NCBI RefSeq assembly: GCF_039645975.1
Contig: NZ_CP147918.1
Span: 620,001 to 684,000, forward strand
From: Sulfurimonas sp. HSL-1716
Lineage (GTDB): Bacteria > Campylobacterota > Campylobacteria > Campylobacterales > Sulfurimonadaceae
Direction: 5' to 3'
Length of the DNA: 64,000 bases
The position numbers were made by a program, and so were the translations under genes. The notes below the pieces were generated by a model, which worked only from the letters and a program-made list of their open reading frames with translations, did no database searches and was not told where the DNA came from. This document shows, piece by piece, positions 34,144-38,610 of the stretch. The first letter of the stretch is position 1. Each line of letters starts with the position of its first letter.

Positions 34144-34170
34144 TGTCAAGAAACTGTCAAGAAACTGTCC
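34144..34170 (+). promoter_or_regulatory. 11-bp tandem repeats upstream of the SHP operon
   Basis: TGTCAAGAAAC occurs twice head to tail (34144-34154, 34155-34165) followed by TGTCC, i.e. about 2.5 units with an 11-bp period. Direct repeats of one helical turn are typical binding sites for OmpR/PhoB-family response regulators, and such a regulator is encoded downstream. The site lies 62-88 bp before the first cytochrome gene, in the intergene shared with hemW. Confidence 0.65.
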
Positions 34171-34231
34171 TGTGCCTCTTGATTGTTTTGGGGAATAATT
34201 TTGACTGTAAAGATGATTTCAGGAGAAAGTT

Positions 34232-34636
34232 ATGAAAAAGATTTTGACGATTTTAGGTCTGTTTGCAGTGATGGGTCTTGCCGCACCGATCGACGGATAT
34301 ATGCAGACGCTGGCAGCAGAAGCGAAAAAAGCCGATGCCGGCTTTAGCGGATTTGACGCCAAAAGAGGAGAAAAGATATTTACCTCCGAGCATATCGGTA
34401 AAAAAGGCAAAAGCATCTCTTGTGCGAGCTGCCACACTGGCGACTTGAAAAAGGCGGGAGAAAACACGTTCACGGCAAAAGCCATAGAGCCTCTTTCGCC
34501 AAAAGCGAACGCGAAAAGACTTAGCGACGTAAAAAACGTGGAAAAATGGCTGAGACGCAACTTTAACGACGTCTATAACAGAGAAGGCAGTGCGCTTGAA
34601 AAGGGCGACGTGCTTACATACATCCAAAACTATTAA
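34232..34636 (+). CDS. SHP-type monohaem cytochrome c (DUF1924)
   Basis: 134 residues with a signal peptide (about 1-18), one haem site CASCH at 64-68, and the family wording FDAKRGEKIF, ERIGK-like and KAIEPLSPKANAKRLSD, ending in YNREGSALEKGDVLTYI. Proteins of this type (sphaeroides haem protein) bind O2 or NO through an unusual haem ligand. First gene of a run with dihaem cytochrome, b561, Spy-like protein and a two-component system, an order known for shp loci. AGGAG precedes the ATG. Confidence 0.85.
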   Translation: MKKILTILGLFAVMGLAAPIDGYMQTLAAEAKKADAGFSGFDAKRGEKIFTSEHIGKKGKSISCASCHTGDLKKAGENTFTAKAIEPLSPKANAKRLSDVKNVEKWLRRNFNDVYNREGSALEKGDVLTYIQNY

Positions 34637-34648
34637 GAGGAGAAGATC

Positions 34649-35227
34649 ATGAAAAAATATCTGATAATGGCGCTAAGCGCCGCAACGCTCATTGGAGGAG
34701 CCGTACTTTTTGCGGATGATGATGAAAGATACGAGAAAAGAGTCTATGAGCATAGTAAAACAAACATGCAGACGAACACGCCAAAGAGAGCTTTAAACGA
34801 ATTTGAAAAAACATATCAAAAGGAGTGCGGTTCATGTCATATGGCGTATCAGCCGGAGTTCTTGCCAAAACGTTCATGGAACAAGATGATGGAGGGCCTT
34901 GACAACCACTTCGAAGTGGACGCGACGCTTGATCCAAAAGACCGTAAAACGATACTCGCATATCTGACAAGCAATGCGGGAGATTCAAAATACAGATCAA
35001 AACATTTTTCAAAGATGTCAAACAGCGTGGCAAAAGATGAAGCTCCGCTAAGGATCAGCGAGACTCCGTACTTTATCAAAGAGCACAGAAAGATCCCAAA
35101 ACGCCTCATAGAACAAAAAGAGGTCAAAAGTATCGCCAACTGTACGGCATGCCATACGACAGCAGATAAGGGCATCTATTCCGAGAGAGCCATAAAGATC
35201 CCTAATTACGGAAGATGGGACGACTAA
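34649..35227 (+). CDS. Dihaem cytochrome c (DHC family)
   Basis: 192 residues with a signal peptide (1-22) and haem sites CGSCH (60-64) and CTACH (165-169). The middle contains KRSWNKMMEGLDNHFEVDATLD, the DHC family core. DHC is the electron donor to SHP in the loci studied. Twelve base pairs after the SHP gene; AGAGGAG precedes the ATG. A second DHC copy is fused to the next gene's product. Confidence 0.9.
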   Translation: MKKYLIMALSAATLIGGAVLFADDDERYEKRVYEHSKTNMQTNTPKRALNEFEKTYQKECGSCHMAYQPEFLPKRSWNKMMEGLDNHFEVDATLDPKDRKTILAYLTSNAGDSKYRSKHFSKMSNSVAKDEAPLRISETPYFIKEHRKIPKRLIEQKEVKSIANCTACHTTADKGIYSERAIKIPNYGRWDD

Positions 35228-35238
35228 GGAGGCCTTAG

Positions 35239-36348
35239 ATGAAAGCATATGTCTGGAGTCTTCCGACCCGCGTATTTCATATGATGTTCGCCGCTTTTAT
35301 TGCAGCGGCCATTCTTAGCGGGGATGAAGACAGTCTTTTAAACATCCATGCGAGTCTGGGTTACGCCATAGGCGTGCTTGTCGTATACAGAATCGTATGG
35401 GGATTTGCGGGACCTCGGTATTCAAGATTTTCGGATTTTCCTCTAAGTCTTAAAGAGTTAAAAGAGTTCATGCTGAACATATTCGATCATAAAAAATATG
35501 CGGGACATAATCCTGCGGCTTCTTTTGTGATGGTGACTATGCTTATCGTCGTCTTTTTGACGGTCGCGACGGGAATACTGGCATACGGCATTCAAGAGGG
35601 AAGAGGGATACTCGGTTTTTTAAACTCTCCCTATTTCAAAGAGATGAAACTCTTTAAAGAGATACATGAGTTCTTCTCCACTTTTTTGATGATACTTATC
35701 GCTGCGCATCTGGGCGGAGTGGCGTTTGACAGGCTGATAGATAAAAAAACGGATACTCTGGGTTCGATCGTAAACGGACATAAAAACATTGATGCGCCTA
35801 GCGTGACGCTGAACCTGTTTCAAAAACTGTTTTCGTTCTTTGCGCTTACTCTGGCAGCGGGTGTGCTTTTTTATTCGCTTTTTTTTAACTCTGTTTTGAC
35901 AAAGAGCACTCACAAAGAGATCTCTTATGAAAAAGAGCATTCTGCATTCGTAGCTGAATGCGCCTCCTGCCATACTCTGTATCCGCCGCATCTGCTGTCC
36001 CGCGCATCATGGGAAAAAGTGATGAACAGTTTAGATGATCACTTTGGCGACGATGCTTCTTTGGATGAGCAGACAAGGGTTTCTATAAGAGATTATCTGA
36101 TGAAAAATTCCGCGGAAAGCTCGACAAAAGAAAGTGCGTTTTATATTTTGAACTCATTAAAAAAGAGTGAAGATATCATAGCCGTAACGCAGACTCCGTA
36201 TTGGAAACACAGGCATAAATCGATAGATAAAAATATATTCAGCTCAAAAGAGATAAAATCTAAAGCGAACTGTAAAGCCTGTCACTCTGATATAGAAAGA
36301 GGGCTTATCGAAGACAGTAATATAAAAATACCTAAGATCGGGGTATGA
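35239..36348 (+). CDS. Cytochrome b561 fused to a second dihaem cytochrome c domain
   Basis: 369 residues. Residues 1-215 are a four-helix b561-type membrane cytochrome with the expected histidines (RVFHMMF, NIHASLGY, EIHEFF, AAHLGG). After a fifth helix (about 195-215) comes a periplasmic DHC domain with CASCH (241-245) and CKACH (345-349). Its core RASWEKVMNSLDDHF is clearly related to the preceding DHC gene, so one arose from the other. It probably passes electrons from the quinone pool to DHC and SHP. Confidence 0.9.
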   Translation: MKAYVWSLPTRVFHMMFAAFIAAAILSGDEDSLLNIHASLGYAIGVLVVYRIVWGFAGPRYSRFSDFPLSLKELKEFMLNIFDHKKYAGHNPAASFVMVTMLIVVFLTVATGILAYGIQEGRGILGFLNSPYFKEMKLFKEIHEFFSTFLMILIAAHLGGVAFDRLIDKKTDTLGSIVNGHKNIDAPSVTLNLFQKLFSFFALTLAAGVLFYSLFFNSVLTKSTHKEISYEKEHSAFVAECASCHTLYPPHLLSRASWEKVMNSLDDHFGDDASLDEQTRVSIRDYLMKNSAESSTKESAFYILNSLKKSEDIIAVTQTPYWKHRHKSIDKNIFSSKEIKSKANCKACHSDIERGLIEDSNIKIPKIGV

Positions 36349-36740
36349 GAATGAAAGCGTTTTTAATCTTTTTGCTGCTCTTTTCCTTTGCTTTTGGCGA
36401 GGAGAAACATAAACATGGGGATCATGAATTCCATATGCCGCGGGATATGGGATACCTGCATCTGGATGAAGGGCAGAGAGACAAAATCTCAAAAATCCTT
36501 TCTAAAAACGAAAGAGACCTTGAAGAGCTTCATAGAAGAAAAGAGCTTGCCGAGATGAAAACAAAGCGTCTTTTTTTAGAAAAAGATTTCGATATAAAAG
36601 CTTATAAGAGACTGATGGTAGAATTAAAAACAGAGTCCGTACATATTCAGGCGGAAATGTTTCGGCAGATGCATGATATATTGACACCCAAACAAAGAGA
36701 GCTTTTTTTATACTATATGAAGGAGTGGGAAGTTGAATAA
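36345..36740 (+). CDS. His-rich Spy/CpxP-like periplasmic protein
   Basis: 131 residues with a signal peptide (cleaved near AFG-EE), a His-rich N-terminus (EKHKHGDHEFH) and helical hairpins with LTPKQRELF, the LTxxQ-type repeat of the Spy/CpxP/ZraP group. Relatives are periplasmic chaperones or metal sensors that feed two-component systems. Its ATG overlaps the b561 stop, and its stop overlaps the regulator start, so it may be the signal input of the locus. Confidence 0.8.
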   Translation: MRMKAFLIFLLLFSFAFGEEKHKHGDHEFHMPRDMGYLHLDEGQRDKISKILSKNERDLEELHRRKELAEMKTKRLFLEKDFDIKAYKRLMVELKTESVHIQAEMFRQMHDILTPKQRELFLYYMKEWEVE

Positions 36741-37404
36741 ACGGATACTTCTTATAGAAGATGAGATCGAGATGCAAGAACTCATCTCAAACTATCTCCT
36801 CAACTACGGATACGATGTCGTATCCTATACAAAGCCCAAAGACGCGATCGAAGATTTTAAAAAGAACGCGGATAGATACGACATCGTCATCTTAGATCTT
36901 ATGCTTCCCGATATGGACGGCTTTGATGTCTGCAAGAATTTAAAAAGCTATGCCGATATTCCCGTTATCATCTCCTCCGCCAGAGGTGATATCGGCAACA
37001 AGATACACGGTTTTGAGATAGGTGCGGACGACTATCTTGCCAAGCCGTATGAACCCAGAGAACTTGTCCTTCGCATAGAAGCGGTGCTAAAACGTGCCCA
37101 AAAAAGCGATAGATTGAAAATATCCGATTTTACGGTCGATGAATCCAGCCGGGAAGTGATGCTTGAAGACTACCCCATAGAGTTTACCAAGGTGGAGTTC
37201 GAGATATTCGTATATCTTTTAAAAAACCGCAATAAAGTGGTTTCAAGAGAGCAGCTTATCAACTCCACTTCATTGCATCATGACACAAAAAACAGGACGA
37301 TCGACATGCACATAAGCAACATCCGCCAAAAGATAGGCGATGATTCAAAAGATGCCAAATATATAAAATCCGTGTGGGGGATAGGGTATAAATTTACAGG
37401 ATAG
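36733..37404 (+). CDS. OmpR-family response regulator
   Basis: 223 residues: receiver domain with the acidic pocket (LLIEDE), phospho-acceptor Asp in VILDLMLPDMDG, Lys in LAKPYEP, and a winged-helix DNA-binding domain (KVVSREQLI, RTIDMHISNIRQKIG, WGIGYKF). TTG start overlapping the Spy-like gene by 8 bp; the kinase follows 3 bp later. Likely target: the 11-bp repeats at 34144-34170. Confidence 0.93.
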   Translation: MNKRILLIEDEIEMQELISNYLLNYGYDVVSYTKPKDAIEDFKKNADRYDIVILDLMLPDMDGFDVCKNLKSYADIPVIISSARGDIGNKIHGFEIGADDYLAKPYEPRELVLRIEAVLKRAQKSDRLKISDFTVDESSREVMLEDYPIEFTKVEFEIFVYLLKNRNKVVSREQLINSTSLHHDTKNRTIDMHISNIRQKIGDDSKDAKYIKSVWGIGYKFTG

Positions 37405-37407
37405 ATA

Positions 37408-38610
37408 ATGTCTATACAAAAAAAGATAACCATTCTCTTTCTCAGCAGTCTTGTGACCATGAGCCTTATTGCGCTGTGGGTAGAGAGAACAAATTTGCAA
37501 AAAGCCCGTACTATCGAGCAAAACAGCTATCTTACAAGTGCAAAAGAGCTTTTTACCCCTCTTGTCAATAAGCAAGAAAGCGAGCTGAACAAAAGGATAG
37601 AAGAGCTGGGGCTTCAGATCATCACAGACGGCAAGATCATTAAAAACGCAGAGATCGTATTTATGCAGCCCCACACCTTCGGCGTCCTTAAAATAATCAA
37701 ATATTCTCAGAGATATTACCTTTATATCAAGTATTTGGATCAAGAGCTGCTTTTGTACGACACTGCTCAAGACGAGAGCAGGAACGAGCGTTATATAACC
37801 AATTCGCTTGTTGTTTTGGACGTGGTATTAATGGTCGTTATCTATCTTGTGATACTAAAGATACTTTCTCCTCTCAAATATATCAGCCAGAAGATGAGAC
37901 AGTTTTCAAAAGGCAATCTTTTTGCGCGTTCAGCCGTAAAGACAAAGGATGAGATAGGCGATGTCTCACGGAGCTTTAATGAGATGGCCTCGCGTCTGGA
38001 GGAGATGATAAACGCAAGAGAGGAGCTTTTAAGAGATGTCGGTCATGAGCTCAGAACACCTATAGCAAAAGGAAAATTTGCATTGGAAGGAGTGGCGGAA
38101 TCCAAAGAAAAAGAGATCATAAAAAGAGCTTTTAACGATCTGGATACTTTGACAAGCGAGATCCTTCAAATGCAGCTTTTAAACAAGGAAGATCTGCTTG
38201 AATACGGCAGATTCAAAGCGCAAACGCTCATTGCCGAAGCTCTTTCGAAGCTGTACATAGAAGATGAGGACGATATAAAAGTAGAGATAGAGGACTTTGA
38301 GATAGAGGGCGATCTGCATTATCTCTCAACGGCACTGAAAAATCTCATAGACAACGCTTTGAAATATTCGACCTCAAAACCCGTCATTATAAAAGCACAA
38401 AAGAGAAAAATATCGATATGCAGCAGCGGCGAAGAGCTGGACAGGGAACTCGAACATTATCTTCAGGCGTTCACTCAGCAGGAGCGATTACAAAAAGGGT
38501 TCGGAATAGGTCTTAATATCGTGAGCAAGATTGTCCAAAAGCACGGCTTTAAGCTCGATTATGCATATTTGGAAGGAAAAAACATATTTACGATCGTTTT
38601 TGTTGCCTAG
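37408..38610 (+). CDS. ArsS-like sensor histidine kinase
   Basis: 400 residues: two membrane helices (about 8-27 and 133-155) around a ~105-residue periplasmic sensor, HAMP (about 155-205), H-box DVGHELRTPIAKGK, N-box LKNLIDNALKYS and a G2 box GFGIGLNIV. The G1 box is degenerate (ICSSGEEL in place of DxGxG), as in the ArsS group of Campylobacterota, and the ATPase part is short. Signal unknown; O2, NO or redox state fits the cytochrome neighbours. Confidence 0.9.
   Translation: MSIQKKITILFLSSLVTMSLIALWVERTNLQKARTIEQNSYLTSAKELFTPLVNKQESELNKRIEELGLQIITDGKIIKNAEIVFMQPHTFGVLKIIKYSQRYYLYIKYLDQELLLYDTAQDESRNERYITNSLVVLDVVLMVVIYLVILKILSPLKYISQKMRQFSKGNLFARSAVKTKDEIGDVSRSFNEMASRLEEMINAREELLRDVGHELRTPIAKGKFALEGVAESKEKEIIKRAFNDLDTLTSEILQMQLLNKEDLLEYGRFKAQTLIAEALSKLYIEDEDDIKVEIEDFEIEGDLHYLSTALKNLIDNALKYSTSKPVIIKAQKRKISICSSGEELDRELEHYLQAFTQQERLQKGFGIGLNIVSKIVQKHGFKLDYAYLEGKNIFTIVFVA

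Follow-up and report, generated by a model that had tools for sequence, protein, structure and literature searches.

SHP (sphaeroides heme protein) has been known for 40 years and has no agreed function. The finding of an SHP gene in the window analyzed here, a 64,000-nucleotide stretch of the genome of Sulfurimonas sp. HSL-1716, a bacterium of the sulfur-oxidizing type, raises the question of what this protein and the genes around it do and which signal controls them. The first-pass annotation had described the locus as a gas-sensing or respiratory system. The gene block (34232–38610) contains six co-directional genes, all on the + strand, between a hemW-like gene upstream and nudH downstream. 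The annotation was correct on the common direction but counted four of the five junctions as tight; at all five, the neighboring genes overlap or lie ≤12 bp apart (+12, +11, −4, −8, and +3 bp). Its gene identities agree with the Pfam profile matches, and the shared strand, tight junctions, and kept gene order support the operon-like unit that it had proposed.

The first gene (34232–34636, +) encodes SHP, a periplasmic monoheme cytochrome c that scores 123.8 bits against the DUF1924 profile (PF09086, cut-off 22.5) and has as sequence relatives in the PDB the R. sphaeroides SHP (1dw0, 8.8e-18) and cytochrome c'' (1e8e). It has a single CXXCH motif, and C64, C67, and H68 are invariant in 51/51 homologues. 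When aligned with 1dw0, W106 and N110 are the equivalents of Trp84 and Asn88, so that the Trp sits four residues before the Asn at the sixth-ligand position, and this pair is also invariant (51/51). The C89–C97 disulfide, which the literature links to ligand release, is absent from all 51 proteins, where F111 and G119 occupy its positions; this disulfide is common in SHP but not defining, and its absence in Campylobacterota was already known (PMC2909971). Both features, an Asn ligand kept in every homologue and a missing ligand-release disulfide, bear on whether this is an ordinary six-coordinate heme; judged from the residues conserved, open-site, ligand-switching chemistry is plausible.

The second gene (34649–35227, +) encodes a soluble diheme cytochrome c (DHC; 138.7 bits against Pfam DHC, with 3u99 and 2fw5 as PDB sequence relatives) whose ligands His 64, 87, 146, and 169 are invariant in 51 homologues. 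The third (35239–36348, +) encodes a cytochrome b561 membrane domain fused to a DHC domain (Ni_hydr_CYTB, 85.2 bits; DHC, 111.4 bits), with conserved ligands for heme b (His 14, 37, 143, and 157) and heme c (His 245, 268, 326, and 349).

The adjacency of SHP, a diheme cytochrome c, and a b-type membrane cytochrome defines the SHP-DHC-cytb operon (Meyer 2010). As the annotation had stated, such loci with regulators are known: Meyer et al. 2010 described SHP operons that include Campylobacterota examples with a b561-DHC chimera and regulators (PMC2909971). The SK3-type operon of Campylobacter fetus and Arcobacter butzleri (Meyer, Kyndt & Cusanovich 2010, PMC2909971) shares with the block SHP placed before CytB, a soluble DHC, the CytB/mDHC chimera, a kinase and regulator, and the lack of the C89–C97 disulfide; the available text of that paper does not describe a Spy-like gene, an operator, the breadth of families, or a metal link for this type, which was thought unique to two species. 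At the genus level, the block agrees with the SK3 type in its chimera, the placement of SHP before CytB, and a kinase/regulator pair of its own: two Aliarcobacter MAGs (L082 and L083) carry the same six genes, and their kinases fall in the same clade as that of the block. The R. sphaeroides shp-dhc-cytb operon (1dw0, 2fw5) has the same three redox parts, including the chimera, and the Trp/Asn pair, but it lacks regulatory genes, has another gene order, and retains the disulfide. A search for the same gene order in other Campylobacterota, which the annotation had recommended, found it kept across several families, in most of ∼50 Campylobacterota SHP loci and nearly all of ∼48 related ones. The block is thus the Campylobacterota form of an already described operon type, for which our literature search found no account other than Meyer 2010; what is new here is the conservation of the order, a Spy gene and an operator tied to the regulators, the single-copy nature of that operator, and a separate kinase clade.

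The last two genes make up the two-component system that had been assigned to the block: an OmpR/PhoB-family response regulator (36733–37404, +; Response_reg and Trans_reg_C, with a TTG start preceded by an RBS) and an ArsS-family membrane sensor histidine kinase (37408–38610, +; HAMP and HATPase, with a periplasmic domain of ∼110 amino acids). The kinase exceeds the cut-off of ArsS_fam_HK (NF038389, 288.7 bits versus 250), the family of Helicobacter ArsRS. It was rejected as an ArsS ortholog, however, as two other kinases in the genome score higher (417 and 339 bits) and the SHP-locus kinases form their own clade, apart from these paralogues. A fold search with a model of its sensor domain gave no informative match. 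The operator and two-component system also persist in two genomes that lack SHP, where they go with DHC-b561/DHC-Spy-TCS or b561-TCS genes and the operator stands in front; the switch is therefore part of the redox chain.

A predicted operator, which the annotation had also proposed, lies ∼65 bp upstream of the gene block (34144–34169, +) and consists of exact 11-bp direct repeats, TGTCAAGAAAC twice, followed by TGTC. No further match at ≤3 mismatches occurs in the window (0 in shuffles), and it is the only site with ≤1 mismatch in the genome. Its footprint is conserved across families, which argues for the prediction: it is present in 45/46 regulator-bearing loci and 0/5 regulator-less loci (Fisher 2.6e-6, a value inflated by the relatedness of the loci), and best scores in the regulator-bearing upstream regions are 16–20 of 20, a score of at least 16 being reached by 11 of 3060 shuffles. 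Additional genomic sites at 2–3 mismatches were rejected; both sites with 2 mismatches fall within unrelated genes, and allowing up to 3 mismatches gives only ∼2-fold as many sites as in the reversed control.

In the alignment, a conserved −10 element (tAnnaT at offsets 50–55; AATAAT at 34194–34199, + in the window) follows ∼30 bp downstream of the tandem; this predicted −10 would put the tandem in an activator position, from about −62 to −42. Pairing a REC plus winged helix regulator with a tandem of ∼11-bp repeats upstream of the promoter matches the direct-repeat pattern of OmpR/PhoB regulators, for which this is the predicted site. The TTGACA nearby was rejected as a σ70 −35 element, as it is 9 bp from the −10; it may instead be a third, inverted half-site (CTTGATTG, 34178–34185, −), whose consensus, TTGACAc, is the reverse complement of TGTCAA. 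The alignment has an information content of 1.35–1.74 bits at offsets 35, 36, and 38; in Sulfurimonas the half-site is degenerate.

Between the redox genes and the two-component system lies a gene (36345–36740, +) for a helical Spy/CpxP-like periplasmic protein with a signal peptide, a candidate accessory sensor. It exceeds the cut-offs of Metal_resist (PF13801, 32.3 bits versus 29.2) and LTXXQ (PF07813, 28.2 versus 24.3), but at 30.1 bits it is far below that of the CpxP equivalog (NF007687, 160). The best fold matches of its model are CpxP (3itf) and Spy (6bie and 3o39), with weak E-values of 0.05–0.2 and probabilities of 0.91–0.98. The annotation called the protein His-rich, which holds for the copy in the window but not as a conserved feature; among 46 homologues, residues 16–50 contain 1–7 His, and His-richness was rejected as a sign of a conserved metal site.

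The Spy gene overlaps the regulator gene and is present in 46/46 regulator-bearing SHP loci and 0/5 regulator-less loci. This strict co-occurrence is consistent with the Spy-like protein being part of the sensing unit. For the sensing step alone, an alternative that we consider only somewhat less probable is that the protein is just a stress-induced chaperone or metal-binding effector and that the kinase senses the signal directly. In favor of this alternative, BaeSR and CpxRA have Spy and CpxP among their own outputs, and the b561-RR-HK operon retains the operator and kinase although it has no Spy gene, which shows that this kinase lineage does not require Spy. The co-occurrence and gene overlap argue against it, as do other SHP operons, in which a different periplasmic protein, Orf1 (a PepSY protein by our analysis), is placed beside the kinase of the operon (PMC2909971).

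By these comparisons, the control module resembles envelope/metal-stress (Cpx/Spy) systems. With the CpxP/CpxA-CpxR, Spy/BaeSR, ZraP/ZraSR, and CnrX modules it shares an OmpR-type regulator and the pairing of a two-component system or sensor with a periplasmic LTXXQ protein that is small and helical; it differs in that its output is a cytochrome chain, its kinase is of the ArsS family, and its Spy-like protein is far under the CpxP and Spy equivalog cut-offs. Our preferred reading, to which we assign a probability of roughly 55%, is that the locus encodes a periplasmic redox chain induced by metal or envelope stress through a dedicated two-component switch; it builds on the parts, ligands, operon conservation, operator footprint with its regulator linkage, and single genomic site established by the sequence comparisons above. 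An envelope or metal-type stress would affect both the Spy/CpxP-like protein and the sensor domain of the kinase; the kinase would phosphorylate the OmpR-type regulator, which would bind the tandem operator and probably activate, rather than repress, the entire operon and with it the genes of the switch itself. Through the b561 domain, electrons would pass between the (mena)quinone pool and both diheme cytochromes, fused and soluble; these would reduce SHP, if electrons flow in that direction, and SHP may then act on a small molecule at its heme with the Trp/Asn distal pair. DHC is called low-potential in the title of a work in the reference list of PMC2909971, so the flow from quinol to DHC may be uphill; this step, the Spy-less b561 operon, and the uninformative sensor-domain search were counted against the stress reading.

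Plasmid SHP operons adjoin copCD/copper oxidase, CDF, metal P-type ATPase, MerR regulator, and ChrA genes, and CusA/CzcA (RND) is beside one Campylobacterota SHP locus. A ZIP-like transporter is present in 10 SHP genomes versus 1 other; Pfam ZIP was discarded as a proxy for this neighbor because it picks up mostly different proteins. Also counted against the stress reading were the locus in the window, which has no metal genes at its flanks, and the ZIP-like linkage, which comes mainly from one genus. When A. vinosum was exposed to pyrite, SHP was induced (log2FC 7.1) with DHC, b561, a response regulator, RND, FieF efflux, and CpxP/Spy; this strong anoxic co-induction with metal efflux genes favors the stress reading, but it was obtained on pyrite and its authors interpret it as electron uptake (PMC11267869), which was counted against.

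Sensing of gas by SHP, as first proposed, was rejected: SHP lacks an output domain and is an effector, the regulators are of a stress type outside the gas-sensor families, and both the gene context and the published induction point to metals. Closest to the annotation and to Meyer et al. is the proposal that SHP, once reduced by quinol, binds O2 and either breaks down NO as an NO dioxygenase or oxygenates a small substrate, with the two-component system answering NO, O2, or redox state. The R. sphaeroides SHP does bind O2, CO, and NO, with a reported NO dioxygenase activity (PMC2909971), and the distal pair is invariant here, but the ligand-release disulfide is missing throughout, the regulators are of Cpx/Spy and ArsS type, and induction or expression of SHP operons is on record for anoxic phototrophs, in which O2-dependent chemistry is impossible (PMC11267869; PMC2909971). 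A link to denitrification was also rejected, as cd1-type nitrite reductase is not associated with SHP (19/49 SHP genomes versus 61/151 others). We regard an NO/O2 module as unlikely. Less likely still is an inward flow, in which a donor in the periplasm or outside the cell (sulfide or metal sulfide) supplies electrons to SHP and DHC, which hand them on to the quinone pool by way of b561. Co-induction with FccAB on pyrite (PMC11267869), the low potential ascribed to DHC, hosts that are mostly sulfur oxidizers, and one relative in which this tandem operator precedes an FCSD-like flavoprotein/b561 operon all favor such a route; Spy-type control would be odd for a donor pathway, SHP also occurs in organisms other than sulfur oxidizers (PMC2909971), and the FCSD case is a single genome. 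Flavocytochrome c (FCSD) was rejected as a general co-regulated partner, since the operator is found in L114 but in none of the five other FCSD loci (L156–L160).

The stress-induced redox chain that we prefer could extend further, although we hold this doubtful: SHP operons across proteobacteria would be redox chains induced by metal or envelope stress that also work without oxygen, rather than O2/NO systems, and in which SHP protects the periplasm (e.g. by reducing metal, sulfur, or nitrogen species) and to which lineages attached different periplasmic-sensor two-component systems (Spy and ArsS-like, PepSY and SK1, or QseC-like). The metal-resistance context suggests a specific hypothesis to start from (Cu, Zn, Cr, or envelope stress), beyond O2/NO alone, and the conserved single-copy operator with its dedicated regulator offers a clean reporter for the inducing signal. 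In one genome (G080), a gene for a putative outer-membrane protein also has the same promoter layout in front of it, and an operator match precedes a relative of this gene in another (G100).

Gene calls and profile searches placed six co-directional genes at 34232-38610 (+ strand). The host genome measures 2.26 Mb, and its nearest named relatives are Sulfurimonadaceae and Campylobacterales MAGs. Genes 1-3 encode an SHP (sphaeroides heme protein, DUF1924), a diheme cytochrome c (DHC), and a b561-DHC membrane fusion; gene 4 encodes a Spy/CpxP-like protein (LTXXQ and Metal_resist both above cut-off), and genes 5 and 6 an OmpR-type regulator (RR) and an ArsS-family HAMP histidine kinase (HK). The five junctions measure +12, +11, -4, -8, and +3 bp, which bears out the six co-directional genes and tight spacing described in the first-pass annotation; all five junctions, rather than the four counted there, overlap or are at most 12 bp apart. 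The search for this gene order in other Campylobacterota, proposed there, found SHP in 51 of 200 related genomes (scores for two fall under the family cut-off), and the order SHP-DHC-b561/DHC-Spy-RR-HK was retained in nearly all complete loci among the ~48 SHP loci read. Five loci lack Spy, regulator, and kinase, and in one relative (locus L052) the kinase is relocated upstream of shp.

The part of Meyer et al. 2010 cited here (PMC2909971) describes SHP operons in >40 proteobacteria, a quinol-b561-DHC-SHP pathway, a CytB/mDHC chimera in Campylobacter fetus, Arcobacter butzleri, Sulfurospirillum, and Wolinella, and SK3-type regulators for C. fetus and A. butzleri. Aliarcobacter has the same six genes in two MAG loci (L082, L083), and the Sulfurimonas locus therefore belongs to this already known kind of operon. 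That part of the text does not mention the Spy-like gene or the operator, nor how widely the regulated form is spread.

Residue conservation was counted over 51 homologues, all from Campylobacterota loci; relatives with solved structures are R. sphaeroides SHP, Methylophilus cytochrome c'', and three DHC entries. The SHP haem-binding CXXCH and the Asn and Trp aligned to N88, the sixth ligand in R. sphaeroides, and to W84 are invariant. DHC keeps its four haem-c ligand histidines, and the fusion keeps four for haem b and four for haem c; because these ligands are conserved, the redox parts look functional at the sequence level. In contrast to R. sphaeroides SHP, invariant Phe and Gly stand in place of both C89-C97 disulfide cysteines, an absence already described in the cited part of Meyer et al. 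2010, which also links this disulfide, in cytochrome c'', to the release of the ligand (PMC2909971). By its conserved residues the pocket is of the open-site type, but with this disulfide missing, ligand release on reduction is a candidate property.

A perfect 11-bp tandem, TGTCAAGAAAC-TGTCAAGAAAC-TGTC, lies upstream of shp at 34144-34169, with no second copy elsewhere in the 64-kb window; the shp site is the sole match at ≤1 mismatch in the genome. When the best placement in the 260 bp upstream of shp was scored (maximum 20), 45 regulator-bearing loci reached 16-20, one further such locus (L061) had no operator, and the five regulator-less loci scored 12-13, the background level, so that the operator predicted in the first-pass annotation has a conserved footprint. 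Scores ≥16 arose in 11 of 3060 dinucleotide shuffles, a significance overstated by counting related genomes as independent, although the loci span several families. Aligned upstream regions contain the tandem repeat and, 14 nt further on, a TTGAca element, which is the half-site TGTCAA in reverse complement; a -10-like hexamer follows after another 9 nt. At ~ -62 to -42, the tandem would occupy an activator position.

The operator also precedes DHC-b561/DHC-Spy-RR-HK (L134, genome G192) and b561-RR-HK (L135, genome G147) in relatives lacking SHP, and both kinases fall within the SHP-linked clade, which is distinct from the other ArsS-family kinases of the Sulfurimonas genome (support 87/89). 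In genome G080, a shp-type promoter (tandem repeat, TTGACAC, -10; L119:3001-3084) lies upstream of a gene for a 415-aa putative outer-membrane protein without a Pfam family, and in G100 an operator match (L051, -151 relative to shp) precedes a 67% identical relative beside shp; this gene is a probable second regulator target in that genus. Separately, a perfect operator match occurs in genome G156 (L114:2544-3021), 65 bp upstream of genes for a small lipoprotein with a CXXCH motif, an FCSD-like sulfide dehydrogenase flavoprotein, and a b561. In two relatives of family f9, eptA (lipid A phosphoethanolamine transferase) has a reversed operator-like site ~60 bp upstream (L034:5102-5122 and L043:6099-6119), and the eptA operon terminates just ahead of shp.

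The first-pass annotation read the locus as gas-sensing or respiratory; the observation was confirmed and its interpretation supported in part, but nothing in the control module supports gas sensing, and its parts look like those of envelope and metal stress systems of the Cpx/Spy type. Gene context, an independent line, points the same way. Plasmid SHP operons adjoin copper oxidase, CopC, CopD, and metal P-type ATPase genes (Caballeronia), a MerR-type metal regulator and copper ATPase (Ruegeria), a chromate transporter (Azospirillum), or, in another plasmid, a CDF exporter and metal ATPase. Among Campylobacterota, one locus is flanked by a CusA/CzcA pump, and the cited part of Meyer et al. 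notes czc genes in A. vinosum (PMC2909971). A ZIP-like membrane protein of 237 aa, matching nothing in Pfam or NCBIfam, occurs in 11 of 200 genomes (10 with SHP versus 1 of the others), and is encoded beside the operon in eight; its positions relative to shp include +4453 (L032), +4359 (L036), +4367 (L045), -656 (L061), and -3457 (L062, L067, and L072). When A. vinosum grows phototrophically on pyrite, joint increases are seen in SHP, DHC, b561, its regulator, CpxP/Spy, and the RND and FieF efflux systems, and FccAB is likewise co-induced (PMC11267869).

Based on these results, we slightly favor (probability about 0.55) an envelope/metal-stress-induced periplasmic redox chain in which SHP is the terminal open-site cytochrome and Spy, HK, RR, and operator form a dedicated switch; confidence is much higher for the cis-regulatory part alone than for the signal or the substrate. 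Anoxygenic growth of A. vinosum proceeds without O2. The rise of its SHP operon on pyrite in such growth (PMC11267869) therefore argues against a purely O2-dependent role of SHP. A simple link to denitrification or NO is weakened because cd1-type nitrite reductase is not associated with SHP when genomes with and without it are compared. The pyrite induction can, however, be read as electron uptake rather than a metal response, and no metal gene adjoins the Sulfurimonas locus itself; for the Campylobacterota clade a metal signal is a candidate.

Two further observations concern SHP gene neighborhoods. A conjugative Pseudomonas plasmid, whose gene table is incomplete and shows no DHC or b-type cytochrome gene annotated nearby, carries a DUF1924/SHP gene (L161:8914-9354) near phosphite oxidation genes. 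In genus g11 (loci L071 and L041), a gene for a second Spy/CpxP-type (LTXXQ), Met/Gly-rich protein lies directly upstream of the operon, ~ -800 to -160 from shp.
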